Under the pieces are notes generated by a model. It was not told the origin of the DNA. It saw only the letters and a program-made list of their open reading frames with translations, and searched no databases. From the IMG/VR virus record IMGVR_UViG_3300017962_000156, positions 1-20,809 of that record: a stretch of 20,809 bases of DNA. One strand, 5' to 3'. The stretch is from a virus. Below, piece by piece: positions 3,070 through 17,524 of the stretch (the stretch's first letter is position 1; each line of letters opens with the position of its first letter). The translations under genes and the position numbers were made by a program.

Positions 3070-3729
3070 ATGGTTGACTATACCTACCTTGTAAACGATA
3101 TTATTAATACAGCAGAAAATAAAGGCACAGAGTTTGTAAATCAAATTCCTAAATTTGTAAACAAAGCTGAAAATAGATTAATTAAAGAACTGGATGATAT
3201 TGGTTTAAATACCACTGTTTCTATTACTTGTGTCGTTAGCAATCAAACTGTTTCTGTTGCAGAAGATACAAGAATTATTAGGCATGTCAACCTAAGAGCT
3301 AGTGGAAGCAAAATTAATTTACTTCAAAGAACTGAAGAGTTTCTTAATGACTATTGGCCTTATGCTGATACCTCAACTGGAGTTCCTAAGTATTACTCAG
3401 TTGCTAATAACTCTTCTATATATTTAGCACCTACTCCTACTTCAGCATATCAAGGTGAAGTTGTTTATGTTGCAAGACCAACTACTTTAACATCTGCTAC
3501 ACCTAATAATTATTTTACTGACTTTTGTTACGATGCTTTATTTTATGCTTCGATGATTGAAGCATTTTTGTATATGAAAGATACAACATTTAGTGCTGTG
3601 TTCACAAATGAATATAAAGGTGCTATAGAAGGATTACGAAATCAGGCGAGAAGAAATCGTCAAGACAATATGCAAAATAATGCTAGTCCTGCAGGATCAG
3701 CAAATACTTTAGTTCAGGGATCACAGTAA
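3070..3729 (+). CDS. Head-tail adaptor protein (SU10/P22-type adaptor family)
   Basis: This 219-residue protein probably forms the ring that joins the portal to the short tail. The N-terminal helix (VNDIINTAENKGTEFVNQIP) and KFVNKAENRLIKELDDIGL near residues 29-47 are followed by a beta domain. That domain has a GVPKYYSVANNSSIYLAPTP block near 113-133 and VVYVARPTTLTS. The C-terminal helices include CYDALFYASMIEAFLYMKD. This order (N.AE.RL..EL, then VP.YY, then APTP, then Y.A.L.EA) is what I know of the podovirus adaptor family represented by phage SU10. A disordered Asn/Ser-rich tail ends the protein. GGA at 3059-3061 is 8 nt before the ATG. A second adaptor-like protein lies at 7400-8074, so the two may occupy successive rings. 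Confidence 0.7.
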   Translation: MVDYTYLVNDIINTAENKGTEFVNQIPKFVNKAENRLIKELDDIGLNTTVSITCVVSNQTVSVAEDTRIIRHVNLRASGSKINLLQRTEEFLNDYWPYADTSTGVPKYYSVANNSSIYLAPTPTSAYQGEVVYVARPTTLTSATPNNYFTDFCYDALFYASMIEAFLYMKDTTFSAVFTNEYKGAIEGLRNQARRNRQDNMQNNASPAGSANTLVQGSQ

Positions 3730-3740
3730 GGAGAATCACT

Positions 3741-3938
3741 ATGAAAATTATTAACAATAAAATTTATTCAGACGATAAAAAAGGTTTTGATCGTTATAAA
3801 GAAGAAAGAATGGAATGCACAGGTAGACCCACTGGTAATGGTTATGGTGCGGCTAGAAAAGGTCCAGCCGTAAACAGAACTTCCGTTGATCTTAGTAAAG
3901 TTGTTATTGATAATAAAGAATACGATTATTCTGTTTAA
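3741..3938 (+). CDS. 65-residue hypothetical protein with GNGYGAARKG motif
   Basis: The ribosome binding site AAGGAG (3728-3733) overlaps the upstream stop and is 7 nt from the ATG, so translation is well supported. The protein has a basic, charged N-terminus (KKGFDRYKEERMECTG). A Gly-rich segment follows near residues 28-40 (GRPTGNGYGAARKGP), then a short acidic/hydrophobic end. The Cys plus G-x-GYG-x-A-x-x-G pattern loosely recalls the RGCG...RGxGxA tails of the basic proteins at 5084-6703, though the order of residues is not the same. No function can be assigned. It sits between the adaptor and the first asparagine-synthetase-like gene. Confidence 0.6.
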   Translation: MKIINNKIYSDDKKGFDRYKEERMECTGRPTGNGYGAARKGPAVNRTSVDLSKVVIDNKEYDYSV

Positions 3939-3943
3939 GTTTT

Positions 3944-5074
3944 ATGTCTGAACTAAAAGTTATTAAATTACATTCTTTAAGTGTATATAAATTTTTTAAA
4001 ATATTAGAATATCCAGAATGGTATAAATTTTTATTATCTGTTTTAGGTAGGCATCCATCTGATCCTATTGATAGAACAGGAACTTTAAAAAACTTCTATA
4101 AGATTGATCCTAAGTATCAACTAAAAATGCCAACGGAGATAGAAGAAGTAGACTTAATTAACTGTATTGAAAATAAAATTAATACAATTAATTCTTTATC
4201 TGACAATAAATATATTGACGTTTTTCTTTCAGGTGGTTTTGATTCTGCAACAATGTACGCAGGGTTTTTACAAAATTGTGATAAAAATAAAATTAGAGCA
4301 GTATTTACTTTTGATGAGGATACAAACAATAGAAAAGCATTAAATCAATTTAATCCTGCTCTGTATAAATTTATAATTGATAACGGTTATAATTACAGAT
4401 TAATTAACAACACCGATCTTCACCCAGAAGATTCTGTGTCAATTATAGGACACCCCGGTAATACATTATCAAATGGTACGGTTCATGATATTTATTATTA
4501 TCATGGTTTAAAAACAGTTAAATGGCCTGACATTTTAAATGGATTATATAAAGATAAATCTTGGCAAGAACTAATAAAAGATATTGCAGACAATATTCCA
4601 TATTGTAACAGTGATACAGTTGTTGAGGAATTAACTAATTTTATTGAAGCAGCACCGATAAATATTAAAAATAACCCATTAAAAATTTTATGGTGGATTA
4701 AATTTAATTTTGCATACACAGACAAAGTTATTGGGCCTTGGTATTTAATGAAGGACATTTCAGTTGATAGAGCAGATAATGTTTTTTCTTTTTACCATAG
4801 CGATGAATTTCAAAAGTATATGATGTATACCTGTTTAGAACAAGGAAAATATATTAGTCCAGAACATGGTCGTAATTCCGAAATGATTAATTATATGTTA
4901 TCTTTTTACAAAGATCAATCTCTTATTGACTATTCTAATCAGTTGCCCCACCAAAAAGGTGAAGTTCATAAAAATCAAAATCGAGGAATTATTAGATTAA
5001 ATAATGGCAAAGTTTTAGATAAGCAATCTTTTTTAGATAACTATAATCAAATTAAAGAAGTATTTTTTCAATAG
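3944..5074 (+). CDS. Asparagine-synthetase-like PP-loop ATPase, divergent (paralogue 1)
   Basis: This 376-residue protein has the PP-loop signature LSGGFDSATM with SGGFDS at residues 96-101. That motif binds ATP in the asparagine synthetase C-terminal domain family (AMP-forming amide ligases and relatives). VFTFDED near 120-126 fits the next beta strand. ILWWIKFNFAYTDKV and YHSDEFQKYM match equivalent segments in the second copy at 12563 (DLFWWWNFNLKWDEV, FRTDDFQKW), so the two are paralogues. The usual G-x-GGD-E/Q-LFG block appears as GHPGNTLSNG near 169-178, with Asn for the conserved Asp, so activity may be altered. There is no N-terminal glutaminase domain and no Cys2, so ammonia or another nucleophile would be needed. 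It starts 5 nt after the previous stop with no clear ribosome binding site, suggesting coupling. Very AT-rich: row 4141-4200 is 18% GC by hand count. Confidence 0.75.
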   Translation: MSELKVIKLHSLSVYKFFKILEYPEWYKFLLSVLGRHPSDPIDRTGTLKNFYKIDPKYQLKMPTEIEEVDLINCIENKINTINSLSDNKYIDVFLSGGFDSATMYAGFLQNCDKNKIRAVFTFDEDTNNRKALNQFNPALYKFIIDNGYNYRLINNTDLHPEDSVSIIGHPGNTLSNGTVHDIYYYHGLKTVKWPDILNGLYKDKSWQELIKDIADNIPYCNSDTVVEELTNFIEAAPINIKNNPLKILWWIKFNFAYTDKVIGPWYLMKDISVDRADNVFSFYHSDEFQKYMMYTCLEQGKYISPEHGRNSEMINYMLSFYKDQSLIDYSNQLPHQKGEVHKNQNRGIIRLNNGKVLDKQSFLDNYNQIKEVFFQ

Positions 5075-5083
5075 GAGAATAAG

Positions 5084-5734
5084 ATGCCAGCATCAAAAAT
5101 TTCAAAGACTATTAAAAGAGGCAGAAAAAGCCGCAGGGGTCGTCCCTCTAATAAAGTTAAAGAGCTAATGGAATCAAGAAATATCTCTAAATCAGAAGCT
5201 GAAAAAATTGCAAAGACAGAGGTTGACAAAAAACCTGTAAAGAAAAAAACTACAAAGAAAAAAGCTGCAGAGAAAAAATCAGAGCCAAAAAGAACTAGGT
5301 CTGAGCAAAGAGAATTAGATAAACTTATTAGGCAGCAAGAAAGAGAAATGCGGGGATCAGGTGCAAATGAAACTGCTAGAGCAGGTGCTACGCAAGAAGA
5401 AAGACTTTCTATTAATGCTCCAGCTAGATCAAAGGAAAGACCTCCTGAAAGAAAAGATTTATCACCCGCACAGCTTAGACGTTTGGTAACATCAGGATTG
5501 GCTGGTGTAGGTAAAAAAGGACAGGTCACTGATAAAGGAACATATTCATCCGGTGCTGATGTAGCTAGTAGAATGATGCGAGGAGACGTTGGTGGAGATG
5601 TTAATATGAAAGCACTAGAAAATGAGCTAAGAACAATAGGCGGCTTTGAAGGACTTAAAAGCGGTGGTAAAGTAGGTATTGGCAGAGGGTGTGGCGTAGC
5701 TATGCGAGGTGCTGGTGCAGTTAGAAAATCTTAA
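5084..5734 (+). CDS. Lys/Arg-rich protein with AT-hook and C-terminal RGCG tail
   Basis: This 216-residue protein has a histone-H1-like basic N-terminus. It contains an AT-hook core RGRP at residues 18-21 within KSRRGRPSNK, then a lysine-rich stretch near 50-75. The middle is charged and helical (QRELDKLIRQQEREMRG), followed by a smaller ordered part (LSPAQLRRLVTSGLAGVGKK) and ENELRTIGGFEG. It ends with GGKVGIGRGCGVAMRGAGA, a motif shared with two otherwise unrelated neighbours. The AT-hook and charge suggest DNA binding, perhaps in the capsid, but this is inference. AGGAG at 5073-5077 overlaps the previous stop, 6 nt before the ATG. It opens a run of seven small basic genes. Confidence 0.7.
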   Translation: MPASKISKTIKRGRKSRRGRPSNKVKELMESRNISKSEAEKIAKTEVDKKPVKKKTTKKKAAEKKSEPKRTRSEQRELDKLIRQQEREMRGSGANETARAGATQEERLSINAPARSKERPPERKDLSPAQLRRLVTSGLAGVGKKGQVTDKGTYSSGADVASRMMRGDVGGDVNMKALENELRTIGGFEGLKSGGKVGIGRGCGVAMRGAGAVRKS

Positions 5735-5746
5735 AGGAGGTTTAAA

Positions 5747-6076
5747 ATGGCAGCAAATATAGTTAAAAAATCAAAGAAATTTTTTGATAAGAAAAAAAGT
5801 GATTCTAAAACTAAGGATGCTAAAAAATTATTACGAGATAGAAAAAAATCTATTGATGATCGACCAGAGTGGGCAAGAGATCTATCTGATGCTGAATATA
5901 AAGATATATTAGGATTACCTCGTAGAGGAAAACCAGGTGAAGAAAATCCTGATATGGTAATACATAGAAAAAAAGGTGGTAAAGTAGATAAACCTAGAGG
6001 CTGTGGACAAGCTCAACGTGGTTATGGTAAGGCTATGATGGGTGGTGGTAAGATTAAAACCAAGAGTAGTTATTAA
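5747..6076 (+). CDS. Small basic protein with C-terminal RGCG tail
   Basis: This 109-residue protein has a very basic N-terminal half (IVKKSKKFFDKKKSD). A short acidic/aromatic segment near residues 43-60 (PEWARDLSDAEYKDILGLP) may form the only folded part. It ends with KKGGKVDKPRGCGQAQRGYG followed by Lys/Met/Gly-rich residues, the same C-terminal motif as its neighbours at 5084 and 6233. AGGAGG at 5735-5740, 6 nt before the ATG, is one of the best ribosome binding sites in the window and implies abundant product. No enzyme motif or membrane segment is seen. It may bind nucleic acid or be packaged, but that is inferred from charge and context only. Confidence 0.65.
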   Translation: MAANIVKKSKKFFDKKKSDSKTKDAKKLLRDRKKSIDDRPEWARDLSDAEYKDILGLPRRGKPGEENPDMVIHRKKGGKVDKPRGCGQAQRGYGKAMMGGGKIKTKSSY

Positions 6077-6096
6077 AACTAAGGTAAGATTTAATA

Positions 6097-6240
6097 ATGC
6101 CATTAAAAAAAGGTTCAAGCCGAAAGACAATTAGTGCAAACATTCGTAAGCTAAAAAAAGAAAAATATCCTCAAAAGCAAGCGGTAGCTATTGCACTTAG
6201 TCAAGCAAAAAAGCGTAAGGGAAAAAGAAAAAGTGGCTAA
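6097..6240 (+). CDS. 47-residue basic protein, [13 protein letters not shown] type
   Basis: This short gene encodes 47 residues with 13 Lys and 4 Arg against one Glu. The core [20 protein letters not shown] and ALSQAKK matches a small protein I recall as widespread in marine phages and environmental bacteria (a YPQ.QA.AIAL.KA motif, probably the DUF6496 type). In that family the central segment is predicted to be a short helix-turn-helix-like hairpin. Function is unknown; charge and the surrounding basic genes suggest nucleic-acid contact. Its last 8 nt overlap the GTG start of the next gene, a strong sign of translational coupling. The ribosome binding site is weak (AAGG near 6081, 12 nt upstream). 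Confidence 0.75.
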
Positions 6241-6703
6241 ACTCTGTCCAAAAGGTAAAGCTGCAGCAAAGCGTAAGTTTGATGTTTATCCATCTGCTTA
6301 TGCTAATATGTATGCGTCTGCTGTTTGTAGTGGTAAAGTAAAACCTGGTGGTAAGAAAAAAAAAGTTGTTAAGAAGAAAACTGGAGGTGGATTACGCAAA
6401 TGGGTAGATGAGAAGTGGGTTGATATTGGCGCACCAAAGAAAAACGGTAAGTATCAGCCATGTGGTAGAAAGTCAACTAAGGGTACAAAACGTAAGTATC
6501 CTAAGTGTGTTCCCCTCGCAAAAGCACAACGTATGACAGAATCTCAGAAAAAATCTGCTGTTAAAAGAAAAAGAGCCAAGCCTCAAGGAGTAGGTGGTAA
6601 GCCTACAATGGTTAAAACATTTAAATCAAAGGGTGGTCAAATTAAACCCAGAGGCTGTGGAGTAGCTCAAAGAGGTTTTGGCAGAGCTATGAAAGGTAAA
6701 TAG
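6233..6703 (+). CDS. Cys-containing Lys-rich protein (DUF5872-like) with RGCG tail
   Basis: The GTG at 6233 gives [20 protein letters not shown], the start typical of this protein in other phages as I recall it, so I prefer it to upstream TTG 6191, which lies deep in the preceding gene. The product is 156 residues. Three parts are visible: the N-terminal [20 protein letters not shown] with ASAVCSGK; a middle block [28 protein letters not shown] and [13 protein letters not shown] resembling DUF5872 domains; and the tail [20 protein letters not shown]. Five cysteines in basic settings could bind metal or form disulfides. Role unknown; probable virion-associated basic protein. It overlaps the preceding gene by 8 nt. 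Confidence 0.7.
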
Positions 6704-6711
6704 GTTATATC

Positions 6712-7011
6712 ATGGCAGTAAAAAGAAAACGTAAAGGAACAGGCATGAAAGGAATGACCATTGGTGGTGGTCATAAACGTCCTACCAAAGCTGGTGCCGG
6801 TATGACTAAAAAGGGAGTAGCTAAATATCGTAGGCAAAATCCCGGTAGTAAACTTCAAACTGCTGTAACAGAATCTAAACCTACTGGTAAAAGAGCAGCA
6901 AGACGTAAAAGTTATTGTGCTAGATCAGCAGGACAAATGAAAAAGTTTCCTAAAGCTGCTAAGAATCCTAACTCAAGACTTAGACAAGCTAGAAAAAGAT
7001 GGAAGTGTTAG
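6712..7011 (+). CDS. DUF6321-like Lys/Arg-rich protein
   Basis: This 99-residue protein is about one third Lys plus Arg with almost no acidic residues. It carries AGMTKKGVAKYRRQNPGSKL, QTAVTESKPTGKRAARRKSY and CARSAGQM, and ends ARKRWKC. I recognise this order (GMT.KGV.KYR..NPGSKLQTAVT, then RRKS.CAR, then a final W.C) as the DUF6321 type found in phages and giant viruses. Two Cys at the CAR and WKC positions are conserved in my memory of the family. Function is unknown; strong positive charge suggests nucleic-acid binding or packaging. AGG at 6702-6704 is 7-8 nt before the ATG. The next gene starts immediately after its stop. Confidence 0.75.
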   Translation: MAVKRKRKGTGMKGMTIGGGHKRPTKAGAGMTKKGVAKYRRQNPGSKLQTAVTESKPTGKRAARRKSYCARSAGQMKKFPKAAKNPNSRLRQARKRWKC

Positions 7012-7293
7012 ATGGCTAAAGGCATGGCACATTTTACTAAAGATGGTACACCCTATTATGGTGAAGTTCATAAAATGCCAGATGGGTCAATACATAGTGG
7101 AAAGACACATACTAAAACATCCAAGAAGGTAATGCACTTTAAAGATTTATCTACTACAGCTAAAAATAAAGCAGGTGACAAAATGGCAAAAGATACATAT
7201 AAAGGAAGAAAGATGAAAAAAACTAAGTATATGTCTAAGGGTGGTGTTGTTCGTCAAAGATATGCAATGGCATCTAGTAAAAAGAAAAAGTAA
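7012..7293 (+). CDS. Small basic His/Lys-rich protein, unknown function
   Basis: This 93-residue protein starts directly after the previous stop codon and overlaps the next start by one base (TAATG), so it is embedded in a coupled run. The N-terminal half repeats a simple pattern: HFTKDGTPYYGEVHKMPDGS then IHSGKTHTKTSKKVMHF, with several His and two DG turns. This looks like a small beta unit seen in other marine phage proteins. The C-terminal half is Lys-rich and contains YMSKGGVVRQRYAMAS. The SKGG element resembles the beginning of the RGCG tails of its neighbours, but the RGCG itself is missing. No function can be assigned. Confidence 0.65.
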   Translation: MAKGMAHFTKDGTPYYGEVHKMPDGSIHSGKTHTKTSKKVMHFKDLSTTAKNKAGDKMAKDTYKGRKMKKTKYMSKGGVVRQRYAMASSKKKK

Positions 7294-7399: not shown

Positions 7400-8074
7400 A
7401 TGGCGACTAGTGGAACATTTACATTTAATTTGGATATAGACGAAGTTATTCAAGAAGCAATGGAAATGATCGGAGGAGAACAAACTCTAGGTCATGAGCC
7501 AGCCTCCGCTCGTCGTTCTTTAAATCTAATGTTAAAAGATTGGCAGAATAGAGAAATTTTATTATGGACAACAGAAGCATCTGTTATATCTCTTTCTACA
7601 AGTACTACTTCATATCCTCTTAGTGATTCAACTATTGATACCTTGCAAGTTATTTTAAATAGAGATAATACTGATCTACCGTTAGATCGTATTTCTTATG
7701 AAGAATATTTACAAGTTCCTCGTAAAGGACAGACAGGTAGACCTACTCAATATACTGTTAAAAGAAATAGAGACAATCCTACAATATTTCTTTGGCCTAT
7801 TCCAGAAAATTCTACAGACAAATTAAAAGTAGAAAAAATTAGTGAACTTCAAGATATAAATAAATCAGCACTTCAGAATGCTGATATTTCTAAAAGATTT
7901 CTACCTTGTCTAACTGCTGGTCTAGCATATTACATGTCTATGAAAAGAGCAGGAGTTCCTGAAGGTAGAATTACAATGTTAAAACAAAATTATGAAGAGC
8001 TATTAGCAAGAGCTAACACTGAAGATAAAGAACGAGCTAGCATGTATATTAGACCAAGACTCGGATATATTTAA
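7400..8074 (+). CDS. Tail accessory protein, P22 gp4-like
   Basis: This 224-residue protein begins with an N-terminal helical block: DEVIQEAMEMIGGEQTLG, then ARRSLNLMLKDWQNREILLW near residues 36-55. A beta segment follows (TTSYPLSDSTIDTLQVILNR), then DRISYEEYLQVPRKGQTGRP, YTVKRN and IFLWPIPEN, and a C-terminal helical part with AGLAYYMSMKRAGVP. The pattern A..IG, then A...LN.ML..W...G/E I.LW, belongs to the P22 tail accessory factor (gp4) type, which binds under the portal and stabilises packaged DNA. It is unrelated in obvious sequence to the adaptor at 3070-3729 but shares the beta-plus-helical layout. The 3.7 kb between the two adaptors is filled by the first PP-loop gene and the basic cluster. 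Confidence 0.7.
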   Translation: MATSGTFTFNLDIDEVIQEAMEMIGGEQTLGHEPASARRSLNLMLKDWQNREILLWTTEASVISLSTSTTSYPLSDSTIDTLQVILNRDNTDLPLDRISYEEYLQVPRKGQTGRPTQYTVKRNRDNPTIFLWPIPENSTDKLKVEKISELQDINKSALQNADISKRFLPCLTAGLAYYMSMKRAGVPEGRITMLKQNYEELLARANTEDKERASMYIRPRLGYI

Positions 8075-8088
8075 TATAGAGTAGTATT

Positions 8089-8367
8089 ATGGCAACAAAT
8101 AAAAATGCTAAAGGACTTTGTGATACTTGTGGATTTGCATATCCTTTAAGAGTATTGCGTATGAATAGCTACGGAATGCTGGTTTGCCCTGAAGATTTTG
8201 AGGGAAACTTTGATTTAAAAAATCATCCACAAAATAGAACTCCTAATACAAGAGATGACGAAACCCTTCGTAATCCTAGACCTCCTCTTAATAATGATAG
8301 AAATGTTGCTTGGCAACTAGCTACAACTGAGTGGGAAAACGAAACAACTGAATGGAATATGGTTTAA
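8089..8367 (+). CDS. Small Cys-motif (zinc-ribbon-like) virion-region protein
   Basis: This 92-residue protein has a CDTCGFAYPLRVLRMNSYGM segment followed by LVCPEDFEGN and HPQN. That gives three clear cysteines (CxxC plus one downstream) and nearby His, as in a small metal-binding knuckle. I recall marine phage proteins with the same C..CGF.YPL.....W.G..VC...FE..HPQ order between the tail accessory gene and the fibres; their role is unassigned. The C-terminal third is Asn/Pro/Arg-rich and then W/E-rich (TTEWENETTEWNMV). Its stop shares one base with the start of the fibre gene (TAATG). A structural or chaperone role for the tail is possible. Confidence 0.65.
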   Translation: MATNKNAKGLCDTCGFAYPLRVLRMNSYGMLVCPEDFEGNFDLKNHPQNRTPNTRDDETLRNPRPPLNNDRNVAWQLATTEWENETTEWNMV

Positions 8368-10317: not shown

Positions 10318-11094
10318 ATGACTTTTCCAATACCTATAGTTCAAGGTGGTATTACAATATTTGATACTGGAACTATTATCACAATTTCTGCTAATACTGC
10401 TGATTATAATTTAAGAAATGATCTTGTAAATAATTATAGTTGGGATGGCACAAGTGCTATTGATGTTACTCTGAATATTAATTCAGGCATAAATGTTAGA
10501 GCAACTACAACAGGAACTGCAGCTATTACAGCCGACCTTGTTGCAGGTTCTAATTTAACAATTAACAATAGCGGAACTATAGCAGGAAGAGGTGGTGCTG
10601 GAGGTAATGGTGGCAATCCTAATGGTGGAACAGGTGGGGCTGGTGGAAACGCTATTGATCTTACAAATCTAACTTGTGTTATTAACAATGCTTCGGGAGC
10701 TAACATTGCTGGTGCCGGTGGTGGTGGCGGTGGAGGTGCTGGCGGCACAGGTGGAGGAAGTTATGACACAGAAACAGGGTGTATCGGACAAGTTTCATTC
10801 AGTGGAGGTGCAGGTGGTGCAGGAGCAAGCACCGATAATCCCGCTACTAATAATGCAACTACTGGCAGTGCGGGATCAAGTAATTCTGGTGGGACTGGCG
10901 GAACTGGAGGTACTGGAGGAAGTTGGGGAAATGTTGGAGCAACTGGAGGTACTGCTTCGGCAAACCCACCTACCCAATGTCGTTCAACTGGAAGTCCCGG
11001 TAGTGGTGGTGCTGCAGGTAAAGCAATTTCTGTAGGGTCAGGTGCGTCTAATACCTTAAATAATTCTGGAAACGTGTACGGGGCTACAAGTTAA
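10318..11094 (+). CDS. Glycine-rich putative receptor-binding adhesin (copy 1)
   Basis: This 258-residue protein has an N-terminal beta part (LVNNYSWDGTSAIDVTLNIN, then ADLVAGSNLTINNSGTIAGR). Dense glycine runs follow (GGAGGNGGNPNGGTGG, AGGGGGGGAGG, GGTGGTGGTGGSWGNVG) with interleaved strand-like pieces such as CVINNASGANIAGAG. It ends GASNTLNNSGNVYGATS. Long Gly-x and GG runs bounded by N-N-S-G-I turns resemble the polyglycine type II helix sandwich of gp38-type adhesins and glycine-rich fibre tips in other phages. I infer a receptor-contacting tip or fibre-chaperone adhesin. The next gene is a clear paralogue. The start is 2 nt after the fibre stop with no strong ribosome binding site, so it is probably coupled to the fibre. 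Confidence 0.65.
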   Translation: MTFPIPIVQGGITIFDTGTIITISANTADYNLRNDLVNNYSWDGTSAIDVTLNINSGINVRATTTGTAAITADLVAGSNLTINNSGTIAGRGGAGGNGGNPNGGTGGAGGNAIDLTNLTCVINNASGANIAGAGGGGGGGAGGTGGGSYDTETGCIGQVSFSGGAGGAGASTDNPATNNATTGSAGSSNSGGTGGTGGTGGSWGNVGATGGTASANPPTQCRSTGSPGSGGAAGKAISVGSGASNTLNNSGNVYGATS

Positions 11095-11095
11095 A

Positions 11096-11851
11096 ATGTC
11101 TATTTTATTTTTTGGAAGCAGACGATTTAGAGGTCAAACATTAAATATCACTTCAGATACAGAAAATTATAATCTGTCTAATGTTTTACAAGGTAGTTAT
11201 GGTTGGAATGGTGTAGACCCCATTGACGCTACGGTTGTTATTAATAGTGGTGTAAATGTTTTTAGCCAAGTTACTAATGTACCAGCATTTACTGCTCATC
11301 TTGTTGCAGGAAGTAATTTTATTTTAATTAATAATGGTAACATTATTGGTAGAGGTGGATTAGGTGGTAGTGCTGGTGGTGCTGGCGATAACGGTGGTGC
11401 AGGTGGAAATGGTGGAGATGCTATTAGTTTAGAAAATATTACCGCATCTATTAACAATGCTTCAGGCGCAAACATTGCCGGAGGTGGTGGCGGTGGTGGC
11501 GGGGGAGGAGGATACCAAACCTGTAATCTATATGATAGTGAATTTCAGGATTGTAATGATTGTATTTATCTAGTAGGAGGTAATGGAGGTAAGGGTGCAA
11601 GCTTTGATGTTCCTCCTACCAATACTAATACAAGTGGATCATCGGGAGCAGCTTCTACTGGAGGAGCAGGAGGAACTTGGGGTAATGTAGGTGCAGGGGG
11701 TGCAGGAGGAAGTGGTCCTGCAGGTATTGTAAACTGTAGAGTTATTGGATCAGGTGGACCGGGAGGTGATGCAGGAAAAGCAGTTAGATTAAATTCAGGT
11801 GCATCGGTAAACATAACAAATAACGGAAATATTTATGGAGCTACATCGTAG
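11096..11851 (+). CDS. Glycine-rich putative receptor-binding adhesin (copy 2)
   Basis: This 251-residue protein is a paralogue of the gene before it. It has the same N-terminal strand pattern (GSYGWNGVDPIDATVVINSG, AHLVAGSNFILINNGNIIGR) and the same boundaries ASINNASGANIAGGG and GDAGKAV. The end GASVNITNNGNIYGATS is almost the same. Between these landmarks are poly-Gly runs (GGGGGGGGGGG near residue 130) and a Cys-containing loop (CNLYDSEFQDCNDCIYLVGG) that differs from copy 1 (ETGCIGQVSFSGG). The conserved frame and variable loops are what one expects of host-range determinants. Only one base separates it from copy 1 and the next gene begins right after its stop, so all are in one transcript. 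The exact role (tip or accessory adhesin) is inferred. Confidence 0.65.
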   Translation: MSILFFGSRRFRGQTLNITSDTENYNLSNVLQGSYGWNGVDPIDATVVINSGVNVFSQVTNVPAFTAHLVAGSNFILINNGNIIGRGGLGGSAGGAGDNGGAGGNGGDAISLENITASINNASGANIAGGGGGGGGGGGYQTCNLYDSEFQDCNDCIYLVGGNGGKGASFDVPPTNTNTSGSSGAASTGGAGGTWGNVGAGGAGGSGPAGIVNCRVIGSGGPGGDAGKAVRLNSGASVNITNNGNIYGATS

Positions 11852-12436
11852 ATGTTATTTTTAAACAATTACACTTACATTGCACCTCAAAATAGTTTAT
11901 ACTATTACGAAGTAGATAACACAGGAAACCAATATAAAGTACCTAAAAATAGTTCAGCATGGATTATTAATAAAGAAAGTGTATCGGTTAAGAATTCGGG
12001 TACATGTTTTGGTGAAGTTATTATTACTATATATGGGTACACACCACCAAATAGAACTGCTCAAATTAATTTAAATACTTATTTACCTTATATTAATGGG
12101 TGTAGTACAAATAATATCTTACCTCCTATTCGATCTGGTGATCCTTGTATGCAATTATTAAAGATACCTGCTGGATGCTCAGAACAAAAACATCACATTC
12201 ATTCAACAGATAGAGTGGTATATGTTTTATCGGGGAGAGGTACAGCAGTTTCAGGTGTAGGTTCTAATGTAGAGAGATATAAATTAGTTGAAGGCAAAAC
12301 TTTAATTTTAAATGCTATGGAGCCACATCACTTTGAAACAGACGATGAAGACTTGATTGTTGTTCCTATGCATATATGGTCTAGTACTAATGAAGAATTT
12401 AACCATCCTATGATGTTGGGAACACATATTGTCTAA
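11852..12436 (+). CDS. Cupin-domain protein in the fibre region
   Basis: This 194-residue protein has an N-terminal beta-rich part of about 95 residues without a recognised fold and a C-terminal cupin domain near residues 105-178. Cupin motif 1 is present as HHIHSTDRVVYVLSGRG, with HxH at 115/117. Motif 2 is EGKTLILNAMEPHHFE, with His at 159-160. The three-His metal set is therefore there, but the Glu expected in motif 1 is Arg121. Cupins of this kind bind Fe, Mn or Ni and may be enzymes, sugar-binding proteins or structural domains. In this place, between adhesins and the second PP-loop gene, it could be a fibre-associated domain or an enzyme acting on a virion or cell-surface substrate. GGAG at 11837-11840 lies 11 nt upstream; the start directly follows the previous stop. 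Confidence 0.7.
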   Translation: MLFLNNYTYIAPQNSLYYYEVDNTGNQYKVPKNSSAWIINKESVSVKNSGTCFGEVIITIYGYTPPNRTAQINLNTYLPYINGCSTNNILPPIRSGDPCMQLLKIPAGCSEQKHHIHSTDRVVYVLSGRGTAVSGVGSNVERYKLVEGKTLILNAMEPHHFETDDEDLIVVPMHIWSSTNEEFNHPMMLGTHIV

Positions 12437-12566
12437 AAAATATATTATATATACACTAAAGTTTTTTGGTTTATGTTTTGTTTTTTATGGTTGTTTTGCG
12501 TATTTTCAAGAACAAGTTAGAGTAATAGTGCAGCTTCATCAATTGGAAAAGAGTTTTATAAAATGA
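12429..12566 (+). CDS. 45-residue membrane peptide (TTG start)
   Basis: This short gene fills the apparent gap before the second PP-loop gene. TTG 12429 is the only normal start in frame, since an in-frame stop lies at 12411-12413. GGGAA (12418-12422) is 6 nt upstream. The product begins MSKKYIIYTLKFFGLCF, has one hydrophobic segment near residues 5-24 (YIIYTLKFFGLCFVFYGCFA), then a charged amphipathic end (EQVRVIVQLHQLEKSFIK). This fits a single-pass inner-membrane peptide with a basic N-terminus. It overlaps the cupin gene by 8 nt and the PP-loop start by ATGA, both signs of coupling. Holin-like or anchor roles are possible, but no family is recognised. Confidence 0.65.
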   Translation: MSKKYIIYTLKFFGLCFVFYGCFAYFQEQVRVIVQLHQLEKSFIK

Positions 12567-14269
12567 GTTTAGTATTAAAAAGAATAGATAATCCAATACC
12601 GGGAAGTGATAAATCACCTTCTGATATTGAACTAAAGGTTATGGTTCTCAATACAGATAAGACAGCCTTTGAAGAACAGTGGAAAGATTTACCAACTGTT
12701 AAAAAAGTTGTTTTAGAAAGATTTAATAATCAATATATAAAAATTAGAGATTGGTATTTTCCAGAACCTGAAAGCATTACACAAGTTGAACAATTCCTTA
12801 GATCAGAAATAACTACAAATCAAGCAACTACAGTTATAGGAAATACTAAAGAAGAAAAAGTTGACAATGCATTACAACAATTTAAGAATAATGCATATAG
12901 ATTATTTATTGAGAAATTATATCAAACTAGACGTCAAGAAATTTTAGATGCTACTGATCCTCAAACTTGTGTAGATATTTTAAATAATCAAGATGAATTT
13001 ATTAATCCTGTATCTGAAGAAGAATGTATAGATTGTGCAATTCTTTTACACACTGCAGTAGGTGTTGGAAAAATTAAAAATATTTTCGGTCAATTAGATA
13101 TTGATTGTGGTATAAAAGTTTTAGATAAATTTGTTGATATATTTAATTTTGAAACTCAGACATCGGTTGATGTATCAACAGATGGACTAGGTGATAAATT
13201 AATTTTTGCTCGTCCAGATTTTTTAAGAGTTGGATCGGGTGAATATAAAAAAACAACTTTAGATGCTATAGGAGGAGATATTCATTGTCTTTGGACTCCT
13301 AATGATCGAACAAATACTTTATCTAGTAATTTAAAGTTAGAGGGTAATCCAATACCTGATGCTACAGGATTTACAAAAACCTTTATAGAGGTAGCAGATG
13401 AAACAGGTGTAAATCTATGGAATGAAAATAAAGAAATAAAAGTATACTGGAGTGGTGGAATAGATAGCACAGTAGCATTAGTAAGTCTACTAAAATCTAA
13501 ACCGTCTGATTGGCACGATAGATTAAAAATTATTTATACTGACGCTTCTATTGAAGAGTATTCTTTATTTTGGAATAATTATATTGATGGGAAAATTCAA
13601 ACAGAAAAAGTTGTAGAACCAGTAAAAGACCCTGATAAATATTACATGGATAAACCTTTTTTCTCTCCCATTCTAAAACACATTGAAAATAATTTAGGTA
13701 CTGGTATATCTGTTACAGGTGAATGTGGCGATCAACTTTTTGGCTCATCAGGATTGATGTCTCATCCTGAACTATTTCTTATGACGGTAGATGAATTTTT
13801 AAAAGAAAAATATCCTGACAACATAGATGAAATAAAATTATTTAATTCTAAATGTCCTTATACTATATCATCTATTAAGGATTTATTTTGGTGGTGGAAT
13901 TTTAATTTAAAATGGGATGAGGTAAGTTATAGAGCACTATCCCTTGTTAAAAATAAAAATTATTTAGCTAACTCTCGTCCCTTCTTTAGAACTGATGATT
14001 TTCAAAAATGGTCTATTTCAAATCCTGATAAAAAGATTAAAGATACTTTAGCGTCATATAAATTTACAGCAAAAGATTACATCTTTGATTATACTTCAGA
14101 TGCAGATTATAGAGATAAAAAATTAAAAATTGGTTCTTTAAAAGTTAGATGGGGAAGCACTATAGCAATAGATAATAATAATAATATTATTTATGTTGGA
14201 GATACCTCAACTAATACCGACTTGTTAAAAGATAAATATGGAGATTCACTACAAAGGTTTATTAATTAA
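12563..14269 (+). CDS. Asparagine-synthetase-like PP-loop protein with unknown N-terminal region (paralogue 2)
   Basis: This 568-residue protein has two parts. Residues 1 to about 285 match nothing I know: charged, helical (LQQFKNNAYRLFIEKLYQTR) and then beta-rich, and not a class II glutaminase because no N-terminal Cys2 is present. Residues from about 290 form the synthetase domain: VYWSGGIDSTVALVSLL with SGGIDS at 297-302, a GECGDQLFGS block with Asp390, DLFWWWNFNLKWDEV and FRTDDFQKWS. The motifs are better preserved than in the copy at 3944. Known relatives make asparagine, beta-lactams, lasso-peptide isopeptides or amides through an acyl-adenylate. The substrate here is unknown. The ATG is in an ATGA overlap with the membrane peptide gene. 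AT-rich (row 14041-14100 is 27% GC by hand count). Confidence 0.75.
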   Translation: MSLVLKRIDNPIPGSDKSPSDIELKVMVLNTDKTAFEEQWKDLPTVKKVVLERFNNQYIKIRDWYFPEPESITQVEQFLRSEITTNQATTVIGNTKEEKVDNALQQFKNNAYRLFIEKLYQTRRQEILDATDPQTCVDILNNQDEFINPVSEEECIDCAILLHTAVGVGKIKNIFGQLDIDCGIKVLDKFVDIFNFETQTSVDVSTDGLGDKLIFARPDFLRVGSGEYKKTTLDAIGGDIHCLWTPNDRTNTLSSNLKLEGNPIPDATGFTKTFIEVADETGVNLWNENKEIKVYWSGGIDSTVALVSLLKSKPSDWHDRLKIIYTDASIEEYSLFWNNYIDGKIQTEKVVEPVKDPDKYYMDKPFFSPILKHIENNLGTGISVTGECGDQLFGSSGLMSHPELFLMTVDEFLKEKYPDNIDEIKLFNSKCPYTISSIKDLFWWWNFNLKWDEVSYRALSLVKNKNYLANSRPFFRTDDFQKWSISNPDKKIKDTLASYKFTAKDYIFDYTSDADYRDKKLKIGSLKVRWGSTIAIDNNNNIIYVGDTSTNTDLLKDKYGDSLQRFIN

Positions 14270-15637: not shown

Positions 15638-17524
15638 ATGCCATCTACTACTTCAAAATTAGAGAAATTAAATTTCAAGCCGGGGTTTCACCGAGAGTCT
15701 ACTCAGTATTCTGAGGAAGGGAAGTGGTTTGATGGTGATCGGGTCAGATTTAGAGAAGGTAAACCTGAAAATTTAAGGGGGTATCAAAAATTTATTGATA
15801 ACTCTTTTATTGGAATAGCAAGAGATTTGCTTGCATGGACAAATAATAATACAGAAAAACTTTTAGGGTTTGGTACTGAAAGTAAATTATACGTTGTATA
15901 TAATGATTTTCCTTATGATGTAACACCGATTGTCAGCACTGTTAGTATTGGAGATTTAGGAACTGGAGGAAGTTTCAATACTGCTGCTGGATCACCTTTA
16001 ATTGAAGTTAGTTCTAATAATAATGGTCGAGCCGTTGGTGACTTTGTAGAATTTTCTAATACATCTATTAATGGATTTGGAACAGATGGCTTAGACTTTT
16101 CTGCCTCTTCTTTTGGTGGTCCAACCTTTGAGGTTGTTAGTGTTCAAGGATTAAATAATTTCTTTATTAGTGTAACTAGCGTAGCTACTAGCACTGAAAC
16201 AGATCAAGGTAGTGGAGTTGCATTCTTTTTATTAGCATCAGGTAAGTCAAATCCTATTCAAGGATTAGGATATGGTGCTGGTGTATATAATGCAGGTGCT
16301 TCTGCAACAGGAGAAAGAGCTTGGAATAGCCCGGCAGAATCTTCTAATATTGTTTTCTTAGGGACACAGTGGTCTTTAGATAACTTTGGTGAAGATTTAT
16401 TAGCTGCTAGAGCGGGAGGACAATTAATTCACTGGGATGCTACGGCTAGTTTAACCCCTGTTAGAGCAAGTATTGTACCAACATCTCCAGAGCAGATAAA
16501 TAGCATTGTTATTTCTCCCAACGATAGACATGTTATTGCTTTAGGTACGGAAGAGTTTGCAACATCTGTATTTAATCCATTACTAGTAAGATGGTCTGAT
16601 CAAGAAAGTTTTTCTAACTGGACTCCTTCAGTTTCTTCTACATCAGGTGAGCTACAGTTAATTGATGGTACTAGAATTATAGGAGGTGTGCGAGGACGTA
16701 ATGCTATTCTTATTTACACGGACAATGCTCTATATACTTTACAGTATGTTGGTCCTCCGTTTATTTTTAGATTAGCTCAAGTCGGTACGAACTGTGGTTT
16801 AATTGGTCCACATGCTGCAATTGATGTTGGTGGTAGAACATTCTGGATGGGCGATACTGATTTTTATGTCTTTGATGGTTCGGTTAAAAAATTAGATTGT
16901 ACCGTTAGAAGATTTTTATATGATGATTTTAATATGACTCAAAAGTCTAAAGTATTTGCAGGACTTAATTCTGAGTTTCATGAGGTTATTTGGTTATATC
17001 CTAAAGAAGGATCAAATGAACCTAATAGTTATGTAATATATAATTATATGGAAAATACTTGGGTCTACGGAAGTAATTTTTATACTACCTATATTGATGA
17101 TTCTATTTTCCTTAATACGGTAGCAACTGGAGCAGTAAGCGGTACAGTTTCAACAACTAACCCACAGTACCTTTGGTTTAATGAGCCAACTTCTGTTTTC
17201 TCTGGTGATGGTCAAGCATTATCTTCTTTTATTGAAAGTGCTGATTTTGATATGGGTGATGGTGATGATATTATGTTTATAGATAGAATTATTCCTGATT
17301 ATGATATCAATCAAGGGACAATTAAATTTTCTTTAAATGTTAAAGATTTTCCTTCAGATCCTACAACGGAAGTAGGCCCTTTCGATATAACAAATCAAAC
17401 TAGAAAAATTGATATGAGGGCTAGGGGTAGACAGGCTAATGTTAGAGTATCAACGTCTGATATTAATACGTCTTGGAAATGGGGTAGTGTTAGAATAGCT
17501 ATGCAACCAGCAGGTAAACGATAA
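15638..17524 (+). CDS. Tail nozzle / packaged-DNA stabilisation protein, P22 gp10-like
   Basis: This 628-residue protein has the landmark N-terminus FKPGFHRESTQYSEEGKWFD then GDRVRFREGKPENLRGYQKF, typical of the phage stabilisation protein family (P22 gp10 type), which caps the tail tube below the adaptor. Repeated beta-blade-like segments follow: GIARDLLAWTNNNTEKLLGF, VRWSDQESFSNWTPS, LIDGTRIIGGVRGRNAILIY, FRLAQVGTNCGLIGPHAAID and RTFWMGDTDFYVFDGSVK. They suggest the beta-propeller seen in gp10-type nozzles. The C-terminal strand-rich domain has IKFSLNVKDFPSD. It is longer than P22 gp10 (472 residues as I recall), with a loop rich in Gly/Ser near 100-200. It shares its last base with the next start (TAATG). 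Confidence 0.7.
   Translation: MPSTTSKLEKLNFKPGFHRESTQYSEEGKWFDGDRVRFREGKPENLRGYQKFIDNSFIGIARDLLAWTNNNTEKLLGFGTESKLYVVYNDFPYDVTPIVSTVSIGDLGTGGSFNTAAGSPLIEVSSNNNGRAVGDFVEFSNTSINGFGTDGLDFSASSFGGPTFEVVSVQGLNNFFISVTSVATSTETDQGSGVAFFLLASGKSNPIQGLGYGAGVYNAGASATGERAWNSPAESSNIVFLGTQWSLDNFGEDLLAARAGGQLIHWDATASLTPVRASIVPTSPEQINSIVISPNDRHVIALGTEEFATSVFNPLLVRWSDQESFSNWTPSVSSTSGELQLIDGTRIIGGVRGRNAILIYTDNALYTLQYVGPPFIFRLAQVGTNCGLIGPHAAIDVGGRTFWMGDTDFYVFDGSVKKLDCTVRRFLYDDFNMTQKSKVFAGLNSEFHEVIWLYPKEGSNEPNSYVIYNYMENTWVYGSNFYTTYIDDSIFLNTVATGAVSGTVSTTNPQYLWFNEPTSVFSGDGQALSSFIESADFDMGDGDDIMFIDRIIPDYDINQGTIKFSLNVKDFPSDPTTEVGPFDITNQTRKIDMRARGRQANVRVSTSDINTSWKWGSVRIAMQPAGKR

Follow-up and report, generated by a model that had tools for sequence, protein, structure and literature searches.

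A short RGxG motif at the ends of unrelated basic phage proteins, a candidate virion-loading tag

The window analyzed here is the whole of a 20,809-base viral record (IMGVR_UViG_3300017962_000156, positions 1 to 20,809). It contains a run of small basic genes at 5084–7293, lying among genes for structural proteins of the virion. The features that bear on the analysis are as follows.

1763–2713, + strand, major capsid protein (phrog_371, E = 1.9e-18)
3070–3729, + strand, virion structural (adaptor-type) protein, a head/neck module marker (phrog_2941, E = 3.2e-18)
5084–5734, + strand, open reading frame of tagged protein 1, 216 aa, basic, with C-terminal tail
5747–6076, + strand, open reading frame of tagged protein 2, 109 aa, very basic, with tail
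6097–6240, + strand, 47-aa basic protein of the cluster, untagged (phrog_2423, E = 4.8e-17)
6233–6703, + strand, tagged protein 3, 156 aa, GTG start; a phrog_27331 domain, then a DUF5872-like domain (phrog_23735), then the tail
6712–7011, + strand, DUF6321 protein of the cluster (Pfam, E = 1.7e-12)
7012–7293, + strand, 93-aa basic protein, last gene of the cluster; ends SKGGVVRQRYAMASSKKKK, with a GG-V linker and no RGxG core
7400–8074, + strand, phrog_12985 adaptor-type protein, a head/neck module marker directly downstream of the tagged cluster (E = 2.3e-24)
15638–17524, + strand, virion structural protein, a marker of virion type (phrog_3287, E = 5.8e-87)
17856, position of a tail-lysozyme protein

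No family could be assigned to protein 1, which had no Pfam match and a PHROG match at E = 0.03 only, or to protein 2, which matched neither Pfam nor PHROG. The two domains of protein 3 matched PHROG at E = 2.3e-26 (phrog_27331) and 4.6e-33 (phrog_23735). Against DUF5872 (PF19197) this protein scored 25.3 bits (E = 2.5e-5), below the curated gathering cutoff of 27.5, and it is therefore named DUF5872-like; L264 passes the same threshold over residues 51–98, which is its YPSAYAN region. The protein at 6712 scored 48.2 bits against DUF6321 (PF19846), above the gathering threshold of 28.5. Searches of solved structures gave no match for either the capsid protein or protein 3; for the protein at 6712 the sole match was a designed TIM barrel (E = 0.005).

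Proteins 1 to 3 share a common end, in which GG[KQ][VI] is followed after a short spacer by RGCGxAxRGxG:

5663–5731, + strand, linker and tail of protein 1, GGKVGIG-RGCGVAMRGAGAVRKS, then the stop
5975–6073, + strand, linker and tail of protein 2, GGKVDKP-RGCGQAQRGYGKAMMGGGKIKTKSSY
6632–6700, + strand, linker and tail of protein 3, with GGQI as linker

The R of RGCG is encoded at 5684, 5996 and 6650, with GG[KQ][VI] a little upstream at 5663, 5975 and 6632. The preliminary description had placed such tails on these three proteins, and the open reading frames and motif positions confirm its coordinates; it had also called the remainder of the proteins unalignable, which is borne out by a best pairwise BLAST E value of 0.02 in a three-sequence search. 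RGCGxAxRG occurs three times on the + strand of the record and never on the − strand, and the reversed control pattern is absent. At residues shared between the three tails, synonymous codons differ at 3 of 8, 4 of 10 and 2 of 12, and the tails are thus not simple DNA copies of one another.

Other features of the window were recorded in passing. The N-terminus of the DUF6321 protein, RKGTGMKGMTIGGG, is possibly a degenerate N-terminal form of the motif, a weak reading based on the N-termini of orthologues; DUF6321 proteins frequently have a [RK]G[TMK]G-like start (window 6712–6780; L249:2471–2752; L260:2093–2419), for example MASRGMGIKTSVKSG, and these starts are perhaps degenerate N-terminal tags. 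A 65-aa protein at 3741–3938 carries GNGYGAARKGPAV in mid-chain rather than at an end, and this sequence may be distantly related to the motif. The proteins at 3944–5074 and 12563–14269, both among structural genes, have an SGG[FI]DS PP-loop motif (asparagine-synthase or QueC-like) and weak PHROG matches to QueC, the second having SGECGDQLFGS in addition. Two adjoining, evidently paralogous glycine-rich proteins (10318–11094 and 11096–11851) beside the tail-fiber-like gene at 8352 are possibly receptor-binding proteins, and a 194-aa protein in the structural region (11852–12436) has a cupin-like C-terminal stretch (HIHSTDRVVYVLSGRGTAVSGV).

To find the motif elsewhere, 2.9 million viral contigs of IMG/VR were covered by motif scans, the abundances from which are lower bounds. 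Many chance matches arose in non-coding frames of GC-rich contigs and were set aside. Among the matches listed, at least 77 open reading frames end in RGCGxAxRGxG, and they fall into about 26 unrelated body clusters, a number that depends on the BLAST threshold and on low-complexity sequence. A second large set of tails, among the matches listed, came from the pattern RGTGAAxRG, for example ending RGTGAAIRGTKFKGVF-stop. In loci with a GC content below 0.5, picked by the presence of the motif and not by its position, RG[CT]GxAxRG was terminal in 138 of the listed matches and internal in 4, with 15–18 residues from the R to the stop in most. An independent test used loci picked by other motifs: 55 of 56 occurrences were C-terminal, one was N-terminal and none was internal, against an expectation by length of about 26% within 30 residues of the C-terminus, with no occurrence of the reversed motif; these loci are partly related to each other and the counts are not independent events. 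The terminal position, together with the strand and reversed-motif controls, rules out a chance low-complexity match. Both of the ways in which the preliminary description had expected its proposal to fail have gone the other way: internal copies are rare, and the tail is not a piece of one longer domain common to the three proteins, which the body clusters and the unrelated bodies in the window rule out. As it also stated, other marine phages do have similar tails.

The same description had drawn attention to an invariant Cys. This holds for the three tails of the window and not beyond them. At position 3 of the core (n = 209) C and T stand in 85 tails each, V in 21, A in 9 and M in 4, the search patterns themselves favoring C and T; M is found in the RGMG set, and V or G in phage HTVC023P. 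The core of the putative tag is R-G-[C/T/V/M]-G-x-[A/V], with Cys merely one of the residues allowed. Since T, V, A, M or G can take its place, a special role of the Cys is unsupported, and Cys-specific chemistry (metal, disulfide or lipid) is ruled out as a general role.

Several dialects of the motif were identified. The sister tail RGCGxVMxxRRKxTKx was first met in phage 023Pt_psg01; its RGCGxVMxxRRK part was C-terminal in 120 of 120 matches among those listed, and bacterial and archaeal genomes amounting to 257 billion bases gave just two copies of a longer form, each on a contig with phage structural genes. By counts read from the listed matches, about 71 contigs have the RGMG form at a C-terminus (for example KGGKMGCRGMGAAIKGGGFSIR) and 45 have it at an N-terminus (for example MKCRGMGKAMKKPIALKKGGSVKDACYHKVKAQYKVFPSAYASG); MKCRGMGxAM is the pattern of the N-terminal version. 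Many of the N-terminal copies precede a VFPSAYASG body, and the same body is tagged at the C-terminus in L310. Bodies of the YPSAYAN type carry RGCG in the window, an RGTG...FKGVF-type tail in L184, RGCGxVM in L293, L296 and L310, and an N-terminal form in L384-type proteins. As one type of body takes such varied tails at either end, the motif is an end module that moves between proteins, rather than a domain, and its dialects appear equivalent and interchangeable, placeable at either end. More C-terminal variants, ARGFNNMLPGKRTKTKLS, GGLVSIRGQGAVMSNRLR and ...GGVKVSNPSLKKYYKGML, were seen on the same body families (L256:977–1237, L270:5081–5311, L293:4746–5111, L308:1661–1873) and are possibly further dialects.

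The tagged bodies are strongly basic, with a mean net charge per residue of +0.142 compared to +0.014 for the other long open reading frames found in those loci, some of which are not genes. Recognizable domains among them are an SLT transglycosylase (L038) and LysM (twice in L025, and in L153). The YPSAYAS domain of the tagged L310 matched 364 phage records, nearly all of them cyanophages, and the cyanophage protein concerned is annotated as a T4-like structural protein, GC0119. In S-SM1 the DUF5872-like, YPSAYAS/YPSAYAN and DUF6321 modules lie in one chain, the first two correspondences being read by eye; the window splits them over the genes at 6233 and 6712. The body domains shared most widely among tagged proteins belong to this T4-GC119 protein (S-SM1 SSM1_115, S-CREM2 gp160), which is thus a single long untagged chain in cyanomyoviruses, whereas the window has separate small end-tagged genes. 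In S-CREM2 the YPSAYAS match falls in gp160, a protein that mass spectrometry has detected, by 7 unique peptides, in purified virions (PMC10665884, Table 3). As an untagged homolog of one body domain, gp160 is the closest experimental link between the tagged bodies and virions. Searches by tblastn of annotated phages with the tail, proteins 1 and 2, and L233 found nothing.

The distribution of the motif follows the type of virion. At least one homolog of the eight structural proteins of the window was present in 291 of 359 tagged loci among the matches listed, and in 113 of the 125 loci of at least 9 kb. Loci of the same scans without a recognized tag, which serve as a chance-match set, had such homologs in 8 of 104 cases, and some of these 8 are tagged proteins that the classifier missed. 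The commonest marker was the phrog_12985 protein (7400), in 221 of 359 tagged loci. Among 32 longer tag-containing records, 25 had a homolog of the capsid protein and 4 more had the 15638 homolog (present in 15 in all); we judge the other three to be probable chance matches, in sequence that is GC-rich or unrelated. The capsid protein of the window is 53–56% identical to those of HTVC023P, HTVC027P, 023Pt_psg01 and DSL-LC04, which places it in their structural type. In HTVC010P, HTVC203P, C75C1 and cyanomyoviruses the same bodies occur with neither the tag nor a capsid protein of the window type. On this distribution, hardly any tags lie outside one type of virion, that of the short-tailed HTVC023P/DSL-LC04-type phages, and these phages are one abundant kind of marine and freshwater bacterial virus. 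That the tag tracks the virion type and not the body points to a receptor belonging to the virion or to the machinery that assembles it.

In the cultured pelagiphage HTVC023P, which infects HTCC1062, gp32, whose gene adjoins the portal, ends RGVGAAIRGHKFIGVK, the YPSAYAN protein gp51 ends SRGGGAAVRGMGFKGVF, and gp30 has a looser form of the tail at its end. HTVC027P has the capsid type and no recognized tag, and hence the tag is not essential to the HTVC023P/DSL-LC04 virion. Nor is every body in phages of the tag-bearing type tagged.

From the sequences, the motif appears as a terminal element, found at either end, set off by a GG-x-V linker, joined to dozens of unrelated basic bodies and exchanged between them. 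We put at about even the chances that it is an end-tag by which basic proteins, probably internal to the head, are targeted to the capsid and loaded into the virion. Such a short modular tag would load its bearers into the virion, most likely into the interior of the head. A capsid, portal or scaffold component, exclusive to this virion or to the machinery that assembles it, would bind the exposed chain end during head assembly, and any protein gaining the tag would travel along with the DNA and possibly be ejected with it. Of the roles put forward in the preliminary description, a sorting or packaging signal is the reading best supported here, shorn of any special part for the Cys; the nucleic-acid contact that it also named is kept alive as a rival by the very basic bodies.

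According to that rival, the tail is the RG-rich, basic nucleic-acid-binding end of DNA-condensing or DNA-ejection proteins, and their association with the virion is secondary to DNA binding. The R/K/G-rich composition of the tail agrees with this, as does its low confidence in structure models, where it is probably disordered; the two proteins folded had a mean pLDDT of about 63, with the tail mostly of low confidence, too weak for further use, and a fold search with the low-confidence DUF5872-like model gave no match. However, restriction to one virion type would not be expected of a tail that binds DNA in general, the same basic bodies are untagged elsewhere, and the conserved Gly spacing and fixed distance to the end suggest a specific docking peptide. 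We regard DNA binding as an unlikely explanation, though the most serious of the alternatives.

A more doubtful proposal makes the tagged proteins normal components of the head and neck, with a structural or assembly role, and the tail a subunit-interface arm of several minor proteins, not a cargo signal. Their genes do lie among portal, capsid and adaptor genes, with 207 of 374 tagged loci having one of four head-module clusters, but the bodies are too numerous, variable and replaceable for such parts, and the tag switches between ends.

It is improbable that the tail is mainly a recombination joint, conserved as DNA for the swapping of gene bodies and of little function as protein. Contig L075, about 99% identical to the window, lacks window positions 5695–5968, so that body 1 is joined in frame to tail 2 at the GGKV codons; this is either a genuine tail-to-tail exchange or an assembly collapse. 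Tails of the same genome also share more synonymous codons than codon usage would predict (369 observed against 285 expected, of 733). Yet about half of the synonymous codons differ within a genome, which indicates that selection acts on the amino-acid sequence, and a joint would leave the fixed terminal position and the N-terminal placement unexplained. Least probable is that the end motif is the target of a phage or host enzyme (a protease, modifying enzyme or chaperone), with removal or modification at the Cys for example: the terminal placement and the GG ahead of the core would suit such a target, but the Cys is not conserved at position 3, the motif stands at either end, as most cleavage or C-degron signals do not, and no candidate enzyme came up in passing.

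A virion-loading tag would have counterparts in the cargo-loading peptides of encapsulins and microcompartments, in which a short terminal motif with a flexible linker is found at either end of unrelated cargo. Those peptides bind the shell proteins of cellular compartments, and the binding to a phage shell proposed here would be the equivalent step. In phage T4, a short terminal peptide sends internal proteins (IPIII) into the head and does the same for foreign proteins to which it is fused (PMC9024508), and in P1 the 30 terminal residues of DarB, an N-terminal capsid targeting signal, suffice to package a reporter (PMC9024508). The RGxG motif may work like these signals; by lying at the chain end and by recurring on unrelated bodies (about 26 clusters, and the three of the window) it shares two features with capsid targeting sequences, a likeness in manner of working and not a claim to belong to the class. 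The T4 signal, likened here by description, is N-terminal as described, whereas the RGxGxA motif is mostly C-terminal, sometimes N-terminal, and spread over dozens of bodies. No common consensus was reported for the Dar proteins of P1 (PMC9024508), in contrast to the consensus found here across unrelated proteins.

A literature search on the motif returned no relevant paper. A portable tag shared across proteins is unreported in the literature found, the cited capsid targeting signals having been discovered protein by protein. A recognizable end-tag would allow prediction of which unknown proteins ride in the particle, and it would offer a tool for the loading of proteins into phage heads.
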